DNA of 35,590 nt from Acidobacteriota bacterium (GTDB lineage: Bacteria; Acidobacteriota; Polarisedimenticolia; J045), in assembly GCA_003696075.1 (NCBI GenBank), contig RFHH01000138.1, positions 1 through 35,590 on the forward strand. The letters run 5' to 3'. Positions 8,966 through 35,590 of the stretch are shown one piece after another (the stretch's first letter is position 1; each line of letters starts with the position of its first letter). A program made the translations under genes and the position numbers. Under the pieces are notes generated by a model, which was given only the letters and a program-made list of their open reading frames with translations, searched no databases and was not told the DNA's origin.

Positions 8966-9820
8966 ATGCACCGTGGATCCTTCGAGGGGCGGGGCCGCGC
9001 CCGACGGATCGGCCCGGCTCTCCTGCTCGCGGCGCTCCTGCCCGGCTGCCGCGCCCCGCAGCCGGCCCGGCCCGTCGTCGCGGCGACCGTGCCGCCGCTC
9101 GCCTGGCTCGCCAGGACGCTGGCCGGACCGGCGGTGGAGGTCGTCCCGCTCGTGCCCCCGGGCGCGCGTCCCGAGACGTTCGCCCCGGCACCGGCCCGCT
9201 GGGCGGCCCTCTCGCGGACCCGCGTGGCCGTCGGTACCGGGCACGCGGCCGCCGCGTTCGAGCAGCGGCTCCTCCGGCGGCTGCGCGAGGTCTCCCCCCG
9301 CTTCCTTCTCGTCACTCCCCCCGCGGACCGCTTCCCCGATCCCCACGTCTGGGTCGACCCCCGCGCGATGCGTCTGCTGGCGGAGCGGCTCGCCGGGGAG
9401 CTGGGACGCCTCGTTCCCGAGGCGCGGCCCGCCCTCGGCGAGCGCCTGGCGCGGGTTCGCCGGATCATCGACGCGGCCGAGGCGGAGCTGCGCGCGGCCG
9501 CGGCCCGCGCCCCGGGCCGTTCCTTCCTGGTGCTCCACCCGGTCTGGTCGCGGCTGGCCGACCGCCTGGGCCTCCGCGAGATCCCCGTGGGCTCCGGCGA
9601 GAGGACGCCCGGACCGTTCGGTCTCGCCCGGGCGCTGAGGCGCGCCCGGCGGCACCGCGCGGACTTGCTGCTCGCCCAACCGCAGCTTCCCCTGGCGGCC
9701 GCCCGCGAGCTGGCCCGGGCCGCGGGGGTGAGAGCGGTCGTGGTCGATCCGTTGGCGTCCGACTGGCCTTCCGCGTGGAGCCGGTTCGCGGCCGCGATCC
9801 GGGAGGGAACACGGCGATGA
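8966..9820 (+). CDS. metal ABC transporter substrate-binding lipoprotein (ZnuA-like)
   Basis: The 284-residue lipoprotein of the cluster A-I (ZnuA/TroA/MntA) family captures zinc or manganese outside the cytoplasmic membrane for the ATPase and permease encoded next. The signal ends in a lipobox-like LLPGC with Cys28. Family metal-site regions can be followed: PPGARPETFAP (usually DPHxYEP), DPHVWVDP with His127, LVLHPVWSRLADRLG with His191, and VVDPLASDW with Asp261. The first site carries Glu70 where a histidine is normal, and there is no histidine-rich loop between sites one and two, so affinity or metal choice may differ from ZnuA. The ATG at 8966 follows GGGAGGGCCGA. Its stop overlaps the next start (ATGA), so it heads a translationally coupled four-gene operon. 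I cannot decide zinc versus manganese from sequence. Confidence 0.85.
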   Translation: MHRGSFEGRGRARRIGPALLLAALLPGCRAPQPARPVVAATVPPLAWLARTLAGPAVEVVPLVPPGARPETFAPAPARWAALSRTRVAVGTGHAAAAFEQRLLRRLREVSPRFLLVTPPADRFPDPHVWVDPRAMRLLAERLAGELGRLVPEARPALGERLARVRRIIDAAEAELRAAAARAPGRSFLVLHPVWSRLADRLGLREIPVGSGERTPGPFGLARALRRARRHRADLLLAQPQLPLAAARELARAAGVRAVVVDPLASDWPSAWSRFAAAIREGTRR

Positions 9821-10593
9821 GCGCCCCGCCGGCGGTGCGCCTCGAGGGGGTGTGGCTCTCGTTCGGCGGCCAGACCGTGCTCGAGGCCGTCGATCTCGCG
9901 ATCCGGCCGGGAGAGTTTCTCGGAATCCTCGGCCCGAACGGGGGCGGAAAGACCGTGCTGCTGAAGGTCATCCTGGGGCTGCTCCGCCCGGACCGGGGCC
10001 GCGTGGAGATCTTCGGGCGCCCCCCCGGCCGCGCGCGCGGCCTTGTCTCGTACGTCCCGCAGTTCGCCGCGTTCGACCCCGCCTTCCCGATCCGGGTGAT
10101 CGACGTCGTCCTGATGGGGCGGCTGTGCCGGCGGCGCCGGTCCTTCTCCCGGTTCTCGGCCGAAGACCGGACGCGGGCGGAGGCTTGTCTCGAGGCGGTC
10201 GGCCTGGGCGATCAGGCCGCGCGTCCCGTCGCCGGGCTCTCCGGCGGGCAGCTCCAGCGCGTGCTCCTCGCCCGCGCCCTCGCCGCGGAGGCCCCGCTGC
10301 TGCTGCTCGACGAGCCGGCCTCCAGCCTCGACCCCGAGGGGGGTCGAAGTCTCTACGAGCTGCTGGAAACGCTCCGGCCGCGAACCACGCTCGTGCTCGT
10401 CTCGCACGACGTGGGGTTGATCTCCTCCCACCTCGAGACGGTCGCCTGCCTGAACCGGCGCCTGCACTACCATCCCGCCGGGGAGATCACGCGCGAGATG
10501 ATCGAGCGGACCTACGGATGCCCGGTGGACGCGCTCGTCCACCGGCACGCGCACCGGGTCGTCCCCCGCCACGGTCCGGAGCCCCGGACGTGA
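9817..10593 (+). CDS. metal ABC transporter ATPase (ZnuC-like)
   Basis: The 258-residue ATPase powers the metal importer. Walker A is GPNGGGKT near residues 47-54, Q-loop YVPQ, signature LSGGQLQR, Walker B LLLLDEPAS and the switch histidine in LVSHDVG. The segment FDPAFPIRVIDVVLMGRL is typical of ZnuC/MntB-type ATPases. The C-terminus is histidine-rich (DALVHRHAHRVVPRHG), which may bind the transported metal on the cytoplasmic side. The ATG overlaps the stop of the binding-protein gene by four bases, and its own stop overlaps the permease GTG. An upstream in-frame extension runs antisense-like through the binding-protein gene and is not real. Confidence 0.93.
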   Translation: MSAPPAVRLEGVWLSFGGQTVLEAVDLAIRPGEFLGILGPNGGGKTVLLKVILGLLRPDRGRVEIFGRPPGRARGLVSYVPQFAAFDPAFPIRVIDVVLMGRLCRRRRSFSRFSAEDRTRAEACLEAVGLGDQAARPVAGLSGGQLQRVLLARALAAEAPLLLLDEPASSLDPEGGRSLYELLETLRPRTTLVLVSHDVGLISSHLETVACLNRRLHYHPAGEITREMIERTYGCPVDALVHRHAHRVVPRHGPEPRT

Positions 10594-11453
10594 TCGAGCT
10601 GCTCCAGCTTCCCCTCTTCCAGCGGGCCCTCGCCGCCGGCCTCCTGGCCGGGATCGCGGGCGGCGTGGTCGGCTCGCTGGTGGTCGCGCGCCGCATGGCG
10701 TCGATCTCGGGAGGGCTGGCCCACGCCGCGTTCGGCGGGGTCGGCTTGGGGTACCTGCTCGGCTTCGACCCTCTTCTCGGCGCCGCGCTGTTCGCCGTGG
10801 GGTGCGCGCTGGCGGTGGGTGCCGTCCAGCTCCGGCTCGGAACGGGGATCGAGACCCTGATCGCCGTCGCGTGGGCGGGGGGTATGGCGCTCGGCATGCT
10901 GTTCGTCGCGCTGGCCCCGGGTTACGCACCCGACCTGATGAGCTACCTCTTCGGGAGCATCCTGCTCGTGCCGCCCGGTTTCCTGAGCGCGGCGGCGCTT
11001 CTCGACGCCGCCGTGGTGGCCGGAGCGATCCTGTTCTACGACGAGCTGCAGGCGGTCAGCTTCGACGAGGACTTCGCCCGGGTGGCGGGCGTCCCGGCCT
11101 CCGCACTCCACCTCGGCGTGCTGGCGGCGGCCGCTCTGACCGTCGTCCTCCTGATCCGCATCGTCGGGGTCATCCTCGTCATCGCTCTGGTGACGGTACC
11201 CGCGGCGATCGCCCGCCACTGGACCGCGACGCTGAAGGGGACGATGATCGTGGCCGCCGGCCTCGGAGTGGCCCTCTGCGAGGCGGGGCTCCTGCTCGCC
11301 TACGCGGCGGGCGCCGCCACCGGCGCGGACGTGCCGGCCGGGCCGACCATCATCCTCGCGGGGATCGGCGCCTTCGCCGCCAGCGCCGCGGTGCGAGCGC
11401 TCACCGCGCGGCGCCGCGATCGCGCGGCGTTCCCCGCCGGAGGCCGCCGATGA
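10590..11453 (+). CDS. metal ABC transporter permease (ZnuB-like)
   Basis: The 287-residue, highly hydrophobic protein of the ABC-3 permease family (ZnuB/TroC/MntC) forms the membrane channel of the metal importer. About eight membrane helices are visible. Family features include VVARRMASISGGLAHAAFGGVG near residue 30 and the loop SFDEDFARVAGVPASALH near 150, which contacts the ATPase. The GTG start overlaps the stop of the ATPase gene and its stop overlaps the ATG of the following dehydrogenase. The position directly after the ATPase and the family match make the call secure; the metal is undecided. Confidence 0.93.
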   Translation: MIELLQLPLFQRALAAGLLAGIAGGVVGSLVVARRMASISGGLAHAAFGGVGLGYLLGFDPLLGAALFAVGCALAVGAVQLRLGTGIETLIAVAWAGGMALGMLFVALAPGYAPDLMSYLFGSILLVPPGFLSAAALLDAAVVAGAILFYDELQAVSFDEDFARVAGVPASALHLGVLAAAALTVVLLIRIVGVILVIALVTVPAAIARHWTATLKGTMIVAAGLGVALCEAGLLLAYAAGAATGADVPAGPTIILAGIGAFAASAAVRALTARRRDRAAFPAGGRR

Positions 11454-27803: not shown

Positions 27804-30800
27804 ATGTCGAGAAACGTGGTCGGCGCGCTGCTCGCGGCCGCAGCCTGCGCGGCGAGTGCCGGACTCGCGTACACGCCCGGCAGCGGGACCGTCTACAGCG
27901 ACGATTTCGAGGGAATCCTCGACCCCGACTGGGAGCAGGGGAACGGCTTCGGCCAGCCCTCCCCCTGGACGCAGAAAGCGGACGGCGGGGACACGTCCTT
28001 CTACGCCGACGGGAGGGGGCCGTTCCCCAGCTCGCCCACGAAGCACTGGGCGAGGCATCCCGCCTACCCGGTCCCGGCCGAGACCTTCTCGATCGCCTTC
28101 GAGTACCGGGCGGAGCGAAGCGGGACCTACATCTTCGATCTCGACCTCGAGCAGCGGGCACCGGAGCTGCGCAAGTATCGCCTTCACGTGGCCGGCGACG
28201 GCACGGTGTCCCTGTGGCGCTCGGAGGGGGACGCGATGGTCCAGATGGCGGCCAGCGCGGCCGGGCTCATCCCATACAACCGCAAGCGCTGGATCCGCCT
28301 GGCCATCGAGTCCGACCCCAGCGGGCATCCGCGGGTCCGGTGCCGTGTCTGGGACGGAGGTGCGACGGCGGAGCCGACCGGTTGGGACCTCGACTTCCTC
28401 GACGACCGCGACACGATCGCGCGGGTCCACCGGTTCGAGTTGACGGCCGACGGCGATCCCGGCGTGGAGACGTGGGTCGACGACCTCGACGTCTTCGGGG
28501 ACATGTCGATCGGGGTCGACTCGTCGATCAAGACGATCTACCTCATGGAGATCAGCCACCTCGACATCGGCTTCACCAAGCCTCCGGACGACATCGAGGA
28601 GTTCGCCAAGACGCATCTCGATCAGGTTCTCGACAACATGGACATCGCCCCGGACTACCGGTGGACGATCGAAAACGGCTGGTGGCTCGACCGCTGGTGG
28701 GAGCGTTCGACGGAGGCGGAACACCAGCGCATGATCGACCGGCTGCGGGAGGGACGCATCCGGCTCGCCGCCGGCTACGCCAACATGCACACGACCAAAG
28801 TGGGGCACGAGGAGCTCGCCCGCTGCCTGTACTATTCGACGCGGTTCGGCCGCGAGCACGGCATCCCGGTCCGCTTCTGGATCACCGATGACGTCCCGGG
28901 ATCGACCTTCGCACTCCCCGAGCTGCTTTCCCGCGCCGGCGTGGAGTTCTACATCGGCGGGATGAACACCTCGTTCGGCGGGAAGCTGACGCTTCCCGAC
29001 CACGGGCACCGTCCCTTCTGGTGGGTCGGACCGGACGGGAGCCGCGTTCTGGCGTGGATCACGTTCGACAGTTACGCCGAGGCGTTCAACTGGGGCTTTT
29101 CCTTCTTCGACACGTTCGACGATCTGCACGAGAAGCTCGGGAAGCGGCTGCCGGAGGTCGAGGAATCGGGCTACCCCTTCCCCGAGATGCTGCTCATGCG
29201 CGGCTTCGACAATCACTACCAGGGATTCAAGGCGAGGAACCTTGTCAACCAGTGGAACCAGACCTACCAGAACCCGAAGTTCATCCTCGCCAACCCCGAC
29301 GAGTTTTTCGACCACATGCTGGCCACCTACGGCCCCGATGCCTTCCCCTCCTACAGCGGCGATTTCGGCGCGGCGTGGTCACCGAGCAACGCGGGGGCCC
29401 CCAACACCCAGCGCTGGGTGCGGGAGGCGCACCGGGACGCGCGGACCGCGGAGGCGCTGCTCGCGGCGGGAGCCGCGATCGACGGTGACCCCGTCCCGGC
29501 CGACGACATCCGGTTCATGTACCGGAAGATGATCGAATCGGACGAGCACTCGGGCGCCGGGGGCTGGCCGGGCTATTTCACCCCCGAGGAGATGGACCGG
29601 AACAACCGCATCCACCTCTCCTACGCCCGCGATGCCCGCGACACCGCCGCGCGGCTCGTCGACCAGGGCCTGGACCGCGCGCTGGCGGACCTCCCCGCCA
29701 CGGGCGACGCGATCGTGGCGGTCAACCCGCTGGGCCATACTCGCGACGGCTGGGTTCGTCAGGCCCTCCCCGCTTCGCTCTACGACACCGAGTTCCGGAT
29801 CGTCGAGCGAGGGACCGGCGTCGAGGTACCGTTCCAGCGGTTCGACGCCACCCGCGAGGTGCTGTTCCGCGCACGATCGGTTCCCGCCGTCGGGTACCGC
29901 GTCTACGATCTCCTGCCGGGCACCCCTTCGGCCGTGCCGGACGGCGTGCTCGACGTGACGCCGGCGGCCATCGAAAACGACTTCTACCGCATCGAGGTGG
30001 ACCCGGCGACGGGCGCCATCACCAGCCTCTACGACAAAACGCGCGGGCGGGAGATGATCGATACCGCATCCCCCTACCGGTTCAACGAGCTGGCCTCGAA
30101 CACGAAGCAGGAGTACGACAGCCAGCAGCCGCCGGTCGCGGAGCCGCCCGACTCGGCCACGGTCACCGTGGGCAGCTCCGGTCCGCTCTTGGGAGAGCTG
30201 GTCGTCGACCGCACGGGCACCCCCCACGTGAGGACCTACTACCGGCTCTATCGCGGTGAGGATCGGGTCGAGATCGAGAACGTGCTCGACCGCGACCAGA
30301 TGCCGTATGTCCCCCAGAGCATCGGTACGCGGGCCTACGTGGTTACGATGCCCTTCGACATCCACGACTTCCAGATCCGAAGCGAGACGACGACGCGGTT
30401 TCTGGATCCCGTGGCCGACTCCTTCGCTCGGCCCAGCGTGTTCGACTGGCACAATGTCGAACACACCCTCGCGTTCTTCGATGCCACCGCGGGCGTGCTC
30501 TACGCGCTCGACAACGCGGTGGCCCATCATTTCGAGAACCTGTCGAGTCTCGCATCGGCCTCCTATTCGACCGGTGACGCTCTCCTGCTTTCCCGACTGG
30601 TCGACCGGAGCGACGAGTACGAGTACGAAGACGGTCATGTCGGGCCGTACGACGTGGAGCCCGGCGCGCCTCACGTGTATCACTTCACCCATCACATCCG
30701 CGCCGCGGATCCCTCCTTCGATCCTGCGGCCGCCAGTTCGTTCGGGTTCGAGGCGCTCACTCCGCTCCGGAGCCGCCTGGTCGGTCGGCGGCCCGGCAAT

Positions 30801-31298
30801 CTTCCCGACGACGCGGCCTCCTTCTTCCGAGCCGAGCCGTCGGGCGTCCGCATGTACACGGTCAAACCCGCTGACGATGGGGACGGGGTGGTGGTGAGGC
30901 TCACCGAGCTGCTCGGTTCGACGACGACCGCCACCGTCAGCTCCGATACGTTCGAGATTCTCGATGCCGAATCGGTCGAGGCGGACGAGGAGGGAGGAAC
31001 CCCGCTGAGCGTGGGCAGCACCGGTGCCGCCGTGCCGCTCGGCCCCTTCCAAACCGCGACGGTGAGGCTCCGCGTCCGCCCCGCCTGGGCTCCGATCACG
31101 CTCTCCGTGACGCGGGACGATGCAGCCGGAACGGTGCACCTCGAGTGGACGGGAGGGGTGGCACCGTACACGCTGCGGAGGGCGCGCGATGCGAGGTTCA
31201 CCACCGACCCCGTGACGCTTCTGGACGAGGAGCCGGAAAGCTCGTACGACGATCCCGTTCTTCGGGACGGGGTGTCCTACTTCTACCTCGTCCGGTAG
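27804..31298 (+). CDS. secreted GH38 alpha-mannosidase-like enzyme
   Basis: The 1,164-residue exported enzyme belongs to glycoside hydrolase family 38, zinc-dependent retaining alpha-mannosidases. A signal peptide (residues 1-22, GALLAAAACAASAGLAYT) is followed by a lectin-like beta-sandwich (about 28-235, beginning YSDDFEGILDPDW). The catalytic domain has zinc ligands His252 and Asp254 in ISHLDIGFT, the probable nucleophile in WITDDVPG (Asp362/Asp363 region), and a third zinc ligand, His582, in SDEHSGAGGW. A C-terminal beta-rich half (about 665 on, NDFYRIEVDPATGAITSLYD) matches GH38 C-terminal domains, and a fibronectin-like tail (APITLSVTRDDAAGTVHLEW) ends the protein. The catalytic motifs differ from lysosomal/Golgi HNDPGW and FGH forms, so specificity is uncertain. 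The ATG follows GGGAGGAGGCGAAG. Confidence 0.88.
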   Translation: MSRNVVGALLAAAACAASAGLAYTPGSGTVYSDDFEGILDPDWEQGNGFGQPSPWTQKADGGDTSFYADGRGPFPSSPTKHWARHPAYPVPAETFSIAFEYRAERSGTYIFDLDLEQRAPELRKYRLHVAGDGTVSLWRSEGDAMVQMAASAAGLIPYNRKRWIRLAIESDPSGHPRVRCRVWDGGATAEPTGWDLDFLDDRDTIARVHRFELTADGDPGVETWVDDLDVFGDMSIGVDSSIKTIYLMEISHLDIGFTKPPDDIEEFAKTHLDQVLDNMDIAPDYRWTIENGWWLDRWWERSTEAEHQRMIDRLREGRIRLAAGYANMHTTKVGHEELARCLYYSTRFGREHGIPVRFWITDDVPGSTFALPELLSRAGVEFYIGGMNTSFGGKLTLPDHGHRPFWWVGPDGSRVLAWITFDSYAEAFNWGFSFFDTFDDLHEKLGKRLPEVEESGYPFPEMLLMRGFDNHYQGFKARNLVNQWNQTYQNPKFILANPDEFFDHMLATYGPDAFPSYSGDFGAAWSPSNAGAPNTQRWVREAHRDARTAEALLAAGAAIDGDPVPADDIRFMYRKMIESDEHSGAGGWPGYFTPEEMDRNNRIHLSYARDARDTAARLVDQGLDRALADLPATGDAIVAVNPLGHTRDGWVRQALPASLYDTEFRIVERGTGVEVPFQRFDATREVLFRARSVPAVGYRVYDLLPGTPSAVPDGVLDVTPAAIENDFYRIEVDPATGAITSLYDKTRGREMIDTASPYRFNELASNTKQEYDSQQPPVAEPPDSATVTVGSSGPLLGELVVDRTGTPHVRTYYRLYRGEDRVEIENVLDRDQMPYVPQSIGTRAYVVTMPFDIHDFQIRSETTTRFLDPVADSFARPSVFDWHNVEHTLAFFDATAGVLYALDNAVAHHFENLSSLASASYSTGDALLLSRLVDRSDEYEYEDGHVGPYDVEPGAPHVYHFTHHIRAADPSFDPAAASSFGFEALTPLRSRLVGRRPGNLPDDAASFFRAEPSGVRMYTVKPADDGDGVVVRLTELLGSTTTATVSSDTFEILDAESVEADEEGGTPLSVGSTGAAVPLGPFQTATVRLRVRPAWAPITLSVTRDDAAGTVHLEWTGGVAPYTLRRARDARFTTDPVTLLDEEPESSYDDPVLRDGVSYFYLVR

Positions 31299-31397: not shown

Positions 31398-32291
31398 TCA
31401 GGACTTGCCGCCGCAGGGATTCATTCCCGACTTCCCGCCACAGGGGTTCATCCCCGACTTCCCGCCGCAGGGATTCATTTCCGACTTCCCGCCGCAGGGA
31501 TTCATCCCCGACTTCCCTCCACAGGGGTTCATCCCCGACTTCCCGCCGCAGGGGTTCATGGCCGCCCCGGATGCCGCGTTGCTGGCGACCAGGCTCACGC
31601 CGATCGAGATCTCCTGACCGACCTTCGTTCCGATCAGATCCGCGCCAGCCGGCCCCGTCACCCCGAAATCGGCCAGCCGCACGGTGAACTCGCCGCGGCC
31701 GGCGAGGAGGTCTCCCGGCATCTTCTGGCGTGTCTTCTCGCTCTCGGGAAGGTAGGTGACGCGGGCCGGGAAACTCACGCGCTTCGTCCTTCCGCGAACG
31801 GTGAGCTTCCCGGTGACATCCATCGAGTAGGTCTTGAACTCGCGCGACGATTTCAAGCTCTTGACATTTCGGACGCCGTCGATCGTGAACCGGATCGAGG
31901 GATGGCGCGCCGCATCGAGCCAGTCGCGGCCTTGGAGATGTTCATCCCGGAGCGGAATGCCGGTCTTGAGGCTCGAGACGGGAACGGTGAGCTCGCCGCG
32001 GGCGCCTCGCTCCGGGTGCATGGGATCGAATTCGATCCAGCCCGACACCGCGTTCGACGTGCCCACGATGTCCTCCAGGGGGGCCTCGCTCTTGAACGTC
32101 ACGACATTGCGGCCCATCGGGTCGTCGACGGCGAATCGGATGGGTCCCTTGCCGCCGCAGGGATTCATGCCCCGCGGGTGATGGCGGCTGGCCGACTTCG
32201 GTGCAGCGGCGGCCGGACCGGGGACGACAGCGGCGGCCAGGGCCATGGCGGCCGCGAGAGCGGCGAGGGGATAGATCCTGGCGATTCTCAT
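31398..32291 (-). CDS. exported YceI-family protein with seven MNPCGGK motifs
   Basis: The 297-residue protein has a signal peptide (1-30, ending GPAAAA). One MNPCGGK motif follows at residues 42-48, then a YceI lipocalin-like domain (about 50-240). Typical YceI features include SEAPLEDIVGTSNAVSGWIEFD, VPVSSLKTGIPLRDEHLQGRDWLDAARHPSIRF and KLTVRGRTKRVSFPARV; members bind isoprenoid lipids in a beta barrel. The C-terminus is six tandem 9-residue units, MNPCGGKSG (one reads MNPCGGKSE; the last is cut at MNPCGGKS), residues 245-297. All seven cysteines of the protein lie in these motifs. A thiol-based role (metal binding, cross-linking or modification) is an inference. The ATG at 32291 follows AAAGGAGC. 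It is the last gene of the FGE operon. Confidence 0.88.
   Translation of the reverse strand: MRIARIYPLAALAAAMALAAAVVPGPAAAAPKSASRHHPRGMNPCGGKGPIRFAVDDPMGRNVVTFKSEAPLEDIVGTSNAVSGWIEFDPMHPERGARGELTVPVSSLKTGIPLRDEHLQGRDWLDAARHPSIRFTIDGVRNVKSLKSSREFKTYSMDVTGKLTVRGRTKRVSFPARVTYLPESEKTRQKMPGDLLAGRGEFTVRLADFGVTGPAGADLIGTKVGQEISIGVSLVASNAASGAAMNPCGGKSGMNPCGGKSGMNPCGGKSEMNPCGGKSGMNPCGGKSGMNPCGGKS
31401..31559 (-). repeat. 27-bp tandem repeat encoding MNPCGGKSG units
   Basis: Six in-phase units of 27 bases encode the C-terminal tail of the YceI protein. Units differ almost only at third codon positions (AAC/AAT, TGC/TGT), plus one change that turns SG into SE. This shows selection for the peptide rather than recent copying of identical DNA. 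Opposite-strand open frames here (PPQGFIPDF repeats) are mirror readings. Confidence 0.92.
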
Positions 32292-32403
32292 CTTCGAAGC
32301 TCCTTTGCCGCGGAACCCGCAAGCGCCTCCCGAAGACGCGGCCGCGAAGCGGTCCGGATCCGGAAATGCGGCGTCTTGGGGTCTCCAGGGCGGGATCCGG
32401 GGC

Positions 32404-32763
32404 TCAGCCCCGGGCGAGGCGTTCCCGGCGGCGCCGGCGAACGACCTCCAGGAAATGAATGCCGGCGGCGAGCAGCCAGGCCGGCGCGGTGAGCGAAAGC
32501 ACCGAAAGGGCGTTCTTGTCGAGGACCCCCTTCGGCGTCGGTAGAAGGCCCAGGTGGAACTCCGGGCGGCGCACCGTCCGCTCCACCTTCGCCCCGTCGT
32601 AAAACCCGGCGGCGGCCAGGGGATCGGAAGGGTCGACGGGCGCCGACACCGTCTCGACCACCTCGAATTTCGTGTAGTAGTGGCGTCCCGTGGCGACCCA
32701 CATGCCCAGCGAGACGAGCGTGGCCGCTGCGGCGAGCGCCGTGACGATCGTTTTCGGTTTCAT
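32404..32763 (-). CDS. small membrane protein of unknown family
   Basis: The 119-residue protein has a hydrophobic helix near each end: KTIVTALAAAATLVSLGMWVA (about 4-24) and ALSVLSLTAPAWLLAAGIHFLEVV (about 85-108). Between them lies a roughly 60-residue segment, probably outside (KFEVVETVSAPVDPSDPLAAAGFYDG, then EFHLGLLPTPKG). It ends with the basic tail RRRRRERLARG, which by the positive-inside rule points to the cytoplasm. It has no cysteine. I do not recognise the family. The ATG overlaps the stop of the FGE homologue by four bases and the YceI gene follows 112 bases later, so it is probably part of the same system, perhaps anchoring the two exported proteins. Confidence 0.7.
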   Translation of the reverse strand: MKPKTIVTALAAAATLVSLGMWVATGRHYYTKFEVVETVSAPVDPSDPLAAAGFYDGAKVERTVRRPEFHLGLLPTPKGVLDKNALSVLSLTAPAWLLAAGIHFLEVVRRRRRERLARG

Positions 32764-33755
32764 CGCGTTTCCTCGGAGTGGACATCGGCGGCGCAACGGA
32801 AGCCGACGTTGGTGAACGCCTCGTCCGGGGGGCTCGAGCCGCGGTAATGCGTGGAATAGGCACCGCAGTAGGCCGCGCTGCAGAACCAGCTGCCGCCGCG
32901 AGCGACGCGGAGCGTTCCGTTGTCGGGTCCCTTGGGATCGGTCCGCGGTGACCTCGCGTAGTAGGCCGGGTCGTACCAGTCCGCGGTCCACTCCCAGACG
33001 TTGCCGATCATGTCGTACAGCCCCCACGCGTTGGGTGCGAAACTGCCGACCGGCGCCGTACGCTCGTAGCCGTCCGTGGCGTCGTTGCGATGAGGCCAGG
33101 GACCCTGCCACACGTTGGCCGGGACGACGGTCTCCCTTGCCGACATCGCATGCGCCGCCGCCGATGTCCCGGCCGGCTTCGCTGCCGGTTCCGGACCGGA
33201 CGGTGCGGCGCGGGCTCCCGGCCTGCCCGGCTGGTGCGGCAACGCCGTGAAGTGCGAGGGCGACCCCGCCCGCGCGGCGTATTCCCACTCAGCCTCGGTC
33301 GGAAGGCGCCGGCCGGCCCAGCGCGCGTAGGCCCGGGCGTCGAACCAGCTCACGCAGACGACGGGGTGGTCCTCGCGGCCTGCGATCGTGGAGCCGGGGC
33401 CGTCCGGATGGCGCCAATCGGCTCCCGGAACCGGTTCGAAGGCGGTTTCCCCCGGCCGATAACCCCAGCAGTACCCCTTGCGCTCGGCGGAGGTCACGTA
33501 CCCGGTCGCGTCGACGAACCGGGAGAACTCGCGGTTGGTCACCTCGTAGCGGTCGAGGGCGAACGGCGAGAGCACCACTTCGTGGACGGGACGCTCGTCG
33601 TCGGGACCGATCTCCGAGCCGAGGGCGATCCGGCCGCCCGGGACGAGCACCTGGGGCGCTCCCGGCGGAGAAGAGCCGCCCGAGGTGCCGAGCGCGAGAG
33701 CCACGACCGCCGCCGAGGCAGCGGCGAGGAAAAGGATCGGGGATCGTCCGAGCAT
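32760..33755 (-). CDS. exported formylglycine-generating-enzyme homologue
   Basis: The 331-residue protein is a full-length member of the formylglycine-generating enzyme (SUMF1/FGE-sulfatase) family; true FGEs use copper and oxygen to oxidise a target cysteine to formylglycine. An N-terminal hydrophobic segment (PILFLAAASAAVVALALG) is a signal or anchor. Fold markers are VPGGRIALGSE, FALDRYEVTNREFSRFVDATGYVT, LPTEAEWEYAAR, WQGPWP, APNAWGLYDMIGNVWEW and VARGGSWFC. The active-site pair is Cys292 and Cys297 in WFCSAAYCGAY, with the same spacing as in human FGE (C336/C341), and TNVGFRCA closes the domain. Many relatives (EgtB, PvdO) lack this pair, so oxidase chemistry is plausible. No sulfatase is encoded in the window; the partners are the YceI-repeat and small membrane proteins. 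The ATG follows GGAGG. Confidence 0.88.
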   Translation of the reverse strand: MLGRSPILFLAAASAAVVALALGTSGGSSPPGAPQVLVPGGRIALGSEIGPDDERPVHEVVLSPFALDRYEVTNREFSRFVDATGYVTSAERKGYCWGYRPGETAFEPVPGADWRHPDGPGSTIAGREDHPVVCVSWFDARAYARWAGRRLPTEAEWEYAARAGSPSHFTALPHQPGRPGARAAPSGPEPAAKPAGTSAAAHAMSARETVVPANVWQGPWPHRNDATDGYERTAPVGSFAPNAWGLYDMIGNVWEWTADWYDPAYYARSPRTDPKGPDNGTLRVARGGSWFCSAAYCGAYSTHYRGSSPPDEAFTNVGFRCAADVHSEETR

Positions 33756-33924: not shown

Positions 33925-35331
33925 CTACGCCGGCGCGGCGAGCCGCTCCGTCGTCTCGTCGAGATCCTGCTCGATCTCGCGCACGATCCGCTCCGGATCG
34001 GGAATCAACCGCGCATCGGAGGCGACACCGAGGCGCACCGACCCCGCATAGCTGCAGATGCTGATCCCGAGCCCCAGGCGACCCGACTGCGGCACCCAGA
34101 AGAACATCCCGGTGATCGGGCGCCCGGCGAGAGAAAGCGGCTGCCGGGGACCGGGCACGCTGGTCACCACCGTCGTGGCTTTGGTGGCGAAGGCCCTGAC
34201 GACCCCGGACTGCACGGCACGCGGGACGCGCGACACCAGGCGGAGGAGCGTCTCGACGACCGCCGGCTCCGCCGAGCGCTTGAGCGATGAGAGCCGGCGG
34301 CGCAGGATGCGGAAGCGCTCCACCGGATCGGCCACCCCGATCGGCAGCGGAAGGAAGACGAGCCCGAACTCGTTGCCCAGTTCCCACATGCGCTCGAGGG
34401 GCCGGAGGTTCACCGGAACCGTGGCGCGGACGCTCATGCGGACCGGAACGGATCCCTTCGCCCTCAGGTAGCGCCCGAGTCCGCCGGCCACCGCCGTCAG
34501 GAGGATGTCGTTCACGGTGCCGCCGCAGCGCTCGCGAGCGCGGTGGATCGGCTCGAGCGGTATGGGGCCCGACCACGCGGCCCTTTTCGCGGTGCCGAGC
34601 CGCCCCTTGAGAGGCGTCCGCGGATCGGGAGGGCGCAGCGCCAGGCGGGTGAGCGCGGCGGCAAACGCGGCCGCCCGGACGGGCCAGGGGGCCGCACGCC
34701 GCATCCGAGCGGGCCGGGCGAGGAGCTTCATCGCGTCCGGCAGCATTTCGGCGACGAGCCGCTCCGCCGTCGCCGCGTCCCCCTCCCGCCTCCGGAAGAG
34801 TTCGAAGAGCGGGTTCGCTCCGGAGCGACCCTCGCGGTCGGTCAGGGACAGCAGCAGCAGCATCAGCGCGATCCCGTCCGCGATGCAGTGGTGGAGCCGG
34901 GCCACGAGCGCCCCGCCGCCGCGGTAGTTCCGGACCAGATGGAAGCACCACGGGGGCGCCTCCATGTCGAGCGGCGTCCCGAGCAGGGCGCTGACGAGTT
35001 CGGCCAGCTCCGCGTCACCTCCCGGAGCCGGAAGGACCTCCTCGCGGAGATGCCGGGCCGGGGAGGCCTGCGCATCCTCGATCCAAGCGGGGCGGCCCCG
35101 CCGATCTCGGCCCACGCGGCAGCGAAAACGGGGGATGGACCACAGCCGGTCCCTGATGAGCCGCTCGACCTCGGCACGGTCCGGCTCCCGGTCGAAGACG
35201 AGAACGCCGCTGACCATCATGAGGTTCGTCGGCTCGTCCATGCGGAGCCAAGCGCGGTCGGGACCCGAGAGCGGCTCGGCGCCGGCGAGCCGCGGCAGTG
35301 CTCCTTCCCGCCGGCGGGTCGAGCGCGTCAC
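33925..35331 (-). CDS. wax ester synthase/diacylglycerol acyltransferase (WS/DGAT)
   Basis: The approximately 468-residue protein is of the bacterial WS/DGAT family, which joins fatty acyl-CoA to a fatty alcohol or diacylglycerol to make storage lipids. The catalytic HHxxxDG motif is HHCIADG at residues 147-153. An opening motif (LSGPDRAWLRMDEPTNLMMVSGVLVF), GTVNDILLTAVAGGLGRYL and VTSVPGPRQPLSLAGRPI are all in family order and spacing. The start is uncertain. GTG 35331 gives the normal family length, but other in-frame starts exist at 35346 (GTG) and 35466 (ATG), and none has a strong ribosome site. The stop is 170 bases before the FGE start, with the sigma-54 promoter between them, so it is probably a separate transcript. 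The exact acceptor cannot be read from sequence. Confidence 0.88.
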   Translation of the reverse strand: MTRSTRRREGALPRLAGAEPLSGPDRAWLRMDEPTNLMMVSGVLVFDREPDRAEVERLIRDRLWSIPRFRCRVGRDRRGRPAWIEDAQASPARHLREEVLPAPGGDAELAELVSALLGTPLDMEAPPWCFHLVRNYRGGGALVARLHHCIADGIALMLLLLSLTDREGRSGANPLFELFRRREGDAATAERLVAEMLPDAMKLLARPARMRRAAPWPVRAAAFAAALTRLALRPPDPRTPLKGRLGTAKRAAWSGPIPLEPIHRARERCGGTVNDILLTAVAGGLGRYLRAKGSVPVRMSVRATVPVNLRPLERMWELGNEFGLVFLPLPIGVADPVERFRILRRRLSSLKRSAEPAVVETLLRLVSRVPRAVQSGVVRAFATKATTVVTSVPGPRQPLSLAGRPITGMFFWVPQSGRLGLGISICSYAGSVRLGVASDARLIPDPERIVREIEQDLDETTERLAAPA

Positions 35332-35590
35332 CGCCCGGCCCCGCACGCCGGCACGCGGCAGGCCAGCACCTTCCGTGTGAACCGCCTGCGGCGCATCCGC
35401 CCCGGGATCGAAGAGAGCGATGCCCGGGCGAACGCCGCCCTCCCCGCCGCCCGCGCTGCACGGCATCGCGGCCGGGAGGGATCCGCCCGCATCGCGCCGG
35501 TGGGGTCGCGGGCCTCTCCCGAGCGGGCGTCGTCGGAAACGGGGTCCTCGCGCTGGCGATGCAGCCGGCAGCCGGTGCGGCGGCCGCGAC
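35332..35590. other. right edge without an assignable gene
   Basis: This stretch upstream of the acyltransferase holds an in-frame extension of that gene (to 35466) without conserved sequence, and otherwise no recognisable coding region. The acyltransferase promoter probably lies here, but no convincing -35/-10 pair was found. Confidence 0.45.

Follow-up and report, generated by a model that had tools for sequence, protein, structure and literature searches.

Results

An exported YceI-family protein carries MNPCGGK arms at both ends

On the reverse strand of the window, i.e. the whole 35,590-nucleotide stretch of DNA analyzed, positions 31398..32291 encode a 297-residue exported protein of the YceI family with N- and C-terminal MNPCGGK arms, identified by PF04264, by its orthologs and by AlphaFold2. 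In the domain search, the PF04264 match reached E=1.2e-27 and 97.5 bits against a gathering cut-off of 23.7, placing the protein within the YceI family. The gene has a good Shine-Dalgarno sequence, AAAGGAG, 8 nt ahead of the ATG (32300..32306, reverse strand, as for all features of this gene). By inspection, residues 1-30 (32202..32291) are hydrophobic and Ala-rich with AAA before P31, and the export signal is likely of the Sec type rather than that of a lipoprotein. Behind it we located by motif and inspection one N-terminal MNPCGGK unit (residues 42-48; 32148..32168), by pLDDT and fold matches a Cys-free YceI β-barrel (residues 49-240; 31572..32147), and by TRF and inspection a C-terminal array of six 27-bp units encoding MNPCGGKS[G/E] (31401..31559). 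The protein has seven Cys (positions 45, 248, 257, 266, 275, 284, and 293), each inside MNPCGGK. This arrangement, one motif in front of a Cys-free barrel and six in the C-terminal array, had been noticed in a preliminary description of the DNA and is borne out by the sequence. The first motif had also been placed directly behind the signal peptide; in fact, it begins ~11 residues past the likely signal-peptide end. A motif that does adjoin the signal peptide is found in orthologs such as L199 and L200, in which a signal-like ...SFAQ leads directly into SNPC.

With ortholog sequences as input, AlphaFold2 predicted a confident barrel at approximately residues 48-240 (pLDDT mostly 75-97), while the arms, including residues 242-297, had pLDDT <50 and are predicted to be disordered. 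The modeled barrel matched the structures 7bwl, 1y0g, 5ixh, and 1wub with E about 1e-8 or better and resembles those of YceI, BcnA, and TT1927b, showing a lipocalin-like barrel fold. The protein thus shares fold, PF04264 domain, export and lipocalin-like character with Escherichia coli YceI, Thermus thermophilus TT1927b and Burkholderia cenocepacia BcnA; however, the solved homologs that were matched correspond to the barrel only, whereas in the window protein NPC arms extend from either end of it.

The repeated peptide is conserved among units

TRF scored the array at 246 and, besides the six 27-bp units, detected a higher-order period of 81 bp with 94% match; this longer period shows part of the array to be a younger block duplication. 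The 21 nt of the N-terminal unit are identical to those of the last C-terminal unit. When the 21-nt cores of all seven units were compared, four sites varied (AAT/AAC, TGC/TGT, GGC/GGA, and GGC/GGG), all of them third positions and all synonymous, an outcome that has a chance of 0.001-0.004 under random point mutation (kappa 1-8). The sole amino-acid change among units lies in the linker, where one SG has become SE (GGG to GAA). The earlier observation that units differ mostly at third positions was therefore correct. As for the conclusion drawn from it, that the peptide is selected while the DNA has aged, the synonymous core changes and the retention of arms in orthologs support selection for MNPCGGK, whereas for an ageing of the DNA there are no more than four core sites to go by.

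In the home genome, which measures 3.29 Mb and is 98.6% complete, NPC[AG][AG]K is encoded seven times (control, 0), each time within the YceI gene, so that the proposed check for the motif in other exported proteins of the same genome returned none. Single-motif matches in 100 relatives were scattered over unrelated frames and were discarded as chance, and a motif search of plasmids and viral contigs found nothing.

The YceI gene lies beside genes for a membrane protein and an exported FGE

Just upstream of the YceI gene, on the same strand, lies the gene for a small membrane protein, SMP (32404..32763; 119 residues, two transmembrane segments by eye, no Cys). SMP is a conserved partner, 56% identical to the protein encoded at L109:6586-6927 beside the YceI gene of that locus, and had no match in NCBIfam or PDB. 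Here the window locus differs from bcnA, for which a cytochrome b561 is described as the membrane partner (PMC9113575).

The next gene, also on the reverse strand (32760..33755), encodes a 331-residue exported enzyme of the FGE family (PF03781, E=7.5e-77) with a hydrophobic, export-like N-terminus. Because the FGE stop codon overlaps the SMP start (ATGA), the two genes appear to be translationally coupled. FGE is a copper enzyme that normally oxidizes Cys in sulfatases. The closest solved relatives of the window enzyme are true FGEs (6muj, E=2e-67, and also 2q17), and Cys292-x4-Cys297 (FCSAAYC; 32865..32882, reverse strand) aligns with the Cu(I)-ligand Cys of FGE (LCHDSYC). This C-x4-C follows GGS, and both Cys are invariant across five FGE orthologs. 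The window enzyme is nevertheless unlike SUMF1/FGE in that it is exported, is tied to a Cys-armed YceI protein rather than to a sulfatase and has the substrate-side loop GAYSTHYRGSSPPD in place of the NRYRVAARSSNTPD of sulfatase FGEs.

Two-ended arms are kept in Zixibacterial orthologs

True orthologs of the YceI protein were found in Zixibacteria, with up to 60% identity and with the gene for the conserved two-transmembrane protein adjoining. One of them (L109, Candidatus Zixiibacteriota) is 58% identical to the window protein and has NPCNPCGGK arms at both ends. For comparison, we used 13 orthologs, i.e. 12 SMP-bearing Zixibacterial regions and the window. NPC arms are present at both ends in 8 of the 13, and orthologs at 43-60% identity retain them around a nearly Cys-free barrel: the exceptions are one NPC in each of the G482 and G483 barrels, and one further G482 Cys lies within an over-long predicted N-terminus. 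The anticipated variation in repeat number was confirmed, with 7 NPC units in the window protein (G000), 13 in G396, 12 in G483, 13 in G482, 8 in G485, 6 in G473, 6 in G461, and 5 in G496; two close relatives have 6 and 8, respectively. The other five orthologs are armless and without any Cys. Orthologs lacking the motif had been named beforehand as an outcome that would refute the initial interpretation, and five of the 13 are of this kind; the arms are thus an add-on that the YceI core can do without. The tree of YceI proteins, which is poorly resolved, requires approximately three gains or losses of arms and allows no count beyond these. The armless YceI protein of G502 (L203:3433-4185) ends in ALNPAGK, which resembles an NPCGK unit minus its Cys.

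Within its own phylum, the closest YceI homologs are at best 38% identical and are without NPC. An SMP profile matched 1 of 396 home-phylum genomes, namely the home genome, and 12 of 132 genomes of the Zixibacteria phylum. Together, the low own-phylum identity and the distribution of SMP suggest horizontal transfer of the gene set, and the YceI-FGE-SMP operon is probably transferable.

Orthologs of the FGE lie beside the YceI gene in G473, G485, G461, and G496 as well as in the window, and all five YceI proteins are armed. Of the eight armed clusters, five thus have an FGE with both Cu-ligand Cys in the operon, against none of the five armless ones, a difference that is weak alone (two-sided Fisher test, 0.075) and comes from related genomes. 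When a profile of the five FGEs was run against 132 Zixibacterial genomes, exactly those four matched with E <1e-190, and the next match was at 1e-30; among these genomes, the FGE subfamily is specific to the armed-YceI cluster. Three armed genomes (G396, G482, and G483) are without it. At the genome level, all eight armed but none of the five armless genomes have an FGE; this count was rejected, as the FGEs of G396, G482, and G483 are distant and have no C-x4-C. Upstream of three FGE-positive clusters are genes for an ECF sigma factor and a small HxxxCxxC protein of the zinc anti-sigma type. Among PF00884 matches, no Cys-type sulfatase signature was found in G461, G485, or G496, while the home genome has 16 such matches, one with CCPSR, and G473 has one possible CSVTR sulfatase. 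The window arms contain no CxPxR, the FGE substrate motif. In 105 kb of sequence around NPC-less YceI homologs, we found no FGE-like genes, and a literature text search for FGE together with YceI returned nothing.

NPC repeats occur in a wide class of exported proteins

We scanned GTDB genome contigs for two NPC[AG][AG]K units within 30 nt and found at least 119 loci (L063-L181). We define the class as proteins with an export signal and two or more NPC[AG][AG]K units, which includes the window protein with its seven units behind a signal-like N-terminus. Class proteins have from 2 to more than 40 units, and many are stand-alone; in others, NPC flanks SoxA/TsdA-type cytochrome c, cytochrome P460, thioredoxin, YHS, or TPR domains, of which the last three labels were assigned by eye. 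The hosts include Alpha-, Beta-, and Gammaproteobacteria, Rokubacteria, Tectomicrobia, Nitrospinota, Cyanobacteria, and others. Among the cytochrome c members, the architecture of the window protein, with arms on either side of a folded domain, is frequent. A YceI domain is found at one locus among the at least 119 listed, that of the ortholog L109. The class has in common with the window protein the Cys motif, export, arms around a redox domain and FGE-like and ECF/anti-sigma neighbors, and differs in carrying cytochrome c, P460, thioredoxin, YHS or no domain. Literature text searches on the motif gave only irrelevant matches, and NPC[AG][AG]K repeats mark a wide class of exported proteins for which no name came up in the papers searched.

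Of the at least 119 loci, 16 have an FGE-like gene, which in 13 cases lies no more than 300 nt from the gene encoding the repeats; approximately one would be expected even at an assumed rate of five per 4-Mb genome, and PF03781 matches were found in 4 of 14 control genomes. Other recurrent neighbors are genes for DUF6969, DUF302, a PF04143 sulfur transporter, a pyridine-nucleotide disulfide reductase with a VTT domain, and DUF3179. The theme of these neighborhoods is redox, sulfur, and soft metals. The NPC repeats themselves are short and of low complexity; the shared neighbors suggest a common system.

Several details of these neighborhoods deserve separate mention. At L118:5177-6061 and approximately ten other loci, exported FGE-like proteins with a conserved GGSWDDxGCGxC are encoded beside alphaproteobacterial NPC proteins; because CGxC replaces C-x4-C, they may not share the chemistry of FGE. 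At up to 52 of the at least 119 loci (e.g. L106:2219-3031), DUF6969 (PF22308) and the NPC-repeat protein are encoded within one 8-kb stretch, and a literature search found no paper naming this domain. In phyla far apart from one another, NPC-repeat genes have an ECF sigma factor gene nearby, together with one for a zinc anti-sigma factor with HxxxCxxC (L067, L090, L106, L079, L141, L172, L198, L199, and L206); L067, L090, L106, and L141 are proteobacterial loci with homologs of the two proteins encoded upstream of the FGE-positive clusters.

Discussion

The locus points to a previously undescribed copper- or thiol-handling device. Starting from the observed anatomy, orthology, arm conservation, operon and associations, we infer metal binding by the arms, the identity of the metal and the direction of the partnership with FGE. 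Our working model, which we put at somewhat under an even chance, is that the thiolates of the disordered arms bind a soft metal, most likely Cu(I), and that the arms sit on a lipocalin-like carrier that partners the exported FGE. In this model, the YceI barrel would be the carrier and the arms would be tails whose regularly spaced thiolates hold several ions per protein; in the home genome, Met precedes each NPC. As operon partners, the carrier would have the two-transmembrane protein and an exported FGE whose Cu(I) bis-thiolate site is retained; the arms would either act as a copper source or buffer for this enzyme and its environment, or offer the enzyme their thiols. FGE binds Cu(I) via two Cys with a Kd of ~1e-17 M and takes the substrate Cys as third ligand (PMC12123546); an arm Cys could therefore act at this site by donating copper or by serving as the substrate.

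At the level of sequence, the soft-metal model is favored by armed orthologs in two phyla with almost all Cys within NPC, by arms in unrelated exported redox proteins, by the exclusivity of the FGE subfamily, by the FGE-like genes at NPC loci and by the shared ECF/zinc anti-sigma neighbors. Counting against it are the three armed genomes without the FGE subfamily and the alphaproteobacterial FGE-like proteins without C-x4-C. Moreover, to our knowledge, C-x8-C spacing is no classical copper motif. Metallothioneins and other Cys-rich metal buffers likewise have many thiols in a flexible chain, but the window arms have one Cys per nine residues, are periplasmic, are fused to a folded carrier and are only putatively metal-binding.

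Bufferins are periplasmic copper chelators that are matured, and defined, by MNIO enzymes. Like the window protein, they are exported Cys-repeat proteins, and fusions of some with Cytochrom_C and FGE-sulfatase domains are known (PMC12452194), which by analogy offers an independent parallel for the copper reading. We also considered whether the arms are themselves a RiPP of the bufferin type that an MNIO enzyme matures; these known fusions and a weak NCBIfam BufA2 match over the signal peptide and first motif (E=0.075, 13.2 bits versus a cut-off of 60) could be cited in favor. Because MNIO enzymes, as far as PF05114 detects them, are absent from the home genome and the 12 Zixibacterial genomes (0 of 13; a Caulobacter control was positive), the BufA2 match is below cut-off and NPCGGK units are not bufferin domains, we rejected a bufferin identity, which is scarcely credible. 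Hardly more plausible is that the array is a functionless, neutral tandem expansion: block duplication over 81 bp and differences in unit number are ordinary in tandem repeats, but every core change is synonymous and two-ended arms are kept in orthologs of two phyla. That the FGE serves a sulfatase and lies beside the YceI gene incidentally is improbable; the CCPSR protein among the 16 PF00884 matches of the home genome would fit, but the subfamily is exported and cluster-only among 132 genomes, and FGE-like genes recur at unrelated NPC loci.

Two other explanations are unlikely but weightier. The arms could be metal-free thiol-redox or disulfide tails that scavenge oxidants or link YceI multimers, in line with NPC fusions to thioredoxin, cytochrome c, and P460 domains elsewhere, with zinc anti-sigma neighbors of a redox-sensitive type and with CNPC (CxxC) in orthologs; this would leave the coupling to a copper-dependent enzyme unexplained, and the operon is without a thiol oxidoreductase. 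We doubt to a similar degree that the arms are substrates of the exported FGE, which would turn their NPC Cys into formylglycine or another oxidized form and so equip the tail with many aldehydes for cross-links to lysines, lipids, or wall polymers. What FGE oxidizes is a peptidyl Cys bound to Cu(I) (PMC12123546), the window enzyme keeps the copper ligands, enzyme and arms are both exported, and the subfamily occurs only with armed YceI. However, NPCGGKS misfits CxPxR, three armed genomes are without this FGE, the home genome has a CCPSR sulfatase and G473 a possible CSVTR one, and adjacency alone is no proof of catalysis. Because the substrate-side loop differs and three genomes have no Cys-type sulfatase signature, we keep the possibility alive. 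That the operon FGE modifies the arms as a multi-site, periplasmic non-sulfatase substrate, with this as a general maturation route for NPC proteins in many phyla, likewise strikes us as rather unlikely; if FGE does act on the arms, known FGE substrates would extend past sulfatases. Under the soft-metal model, by contrast, arms carrying copper would make a bufferin-like device without MNIO chemistry. The array is the home-genome version of arms belonging to a probably transferable YceI-FGE-SMP operon, a larger feature than the array alone, and because the presence of a copper-type FGE is tied to the repeats, the locus provides a genetic handle on the NPC class.

Elsewhere in the window, a WS/DGAT (wax ester synthase/diacylglycerol acyltransferase) gene (33925-35466) directly precedes the FGE gene on the reverse strand, which the two share, and a gene for a GH38-type mannosidase-like exported protein of 1164 residues (27804-31298, forward strand) is convergent to the YceI gene. 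At 8966-11453 on the forward strand, genes for a periplasmic binding protein, an ATPase, and a membrane permease follow one another and by eye encode an ABC transporter of metal type.
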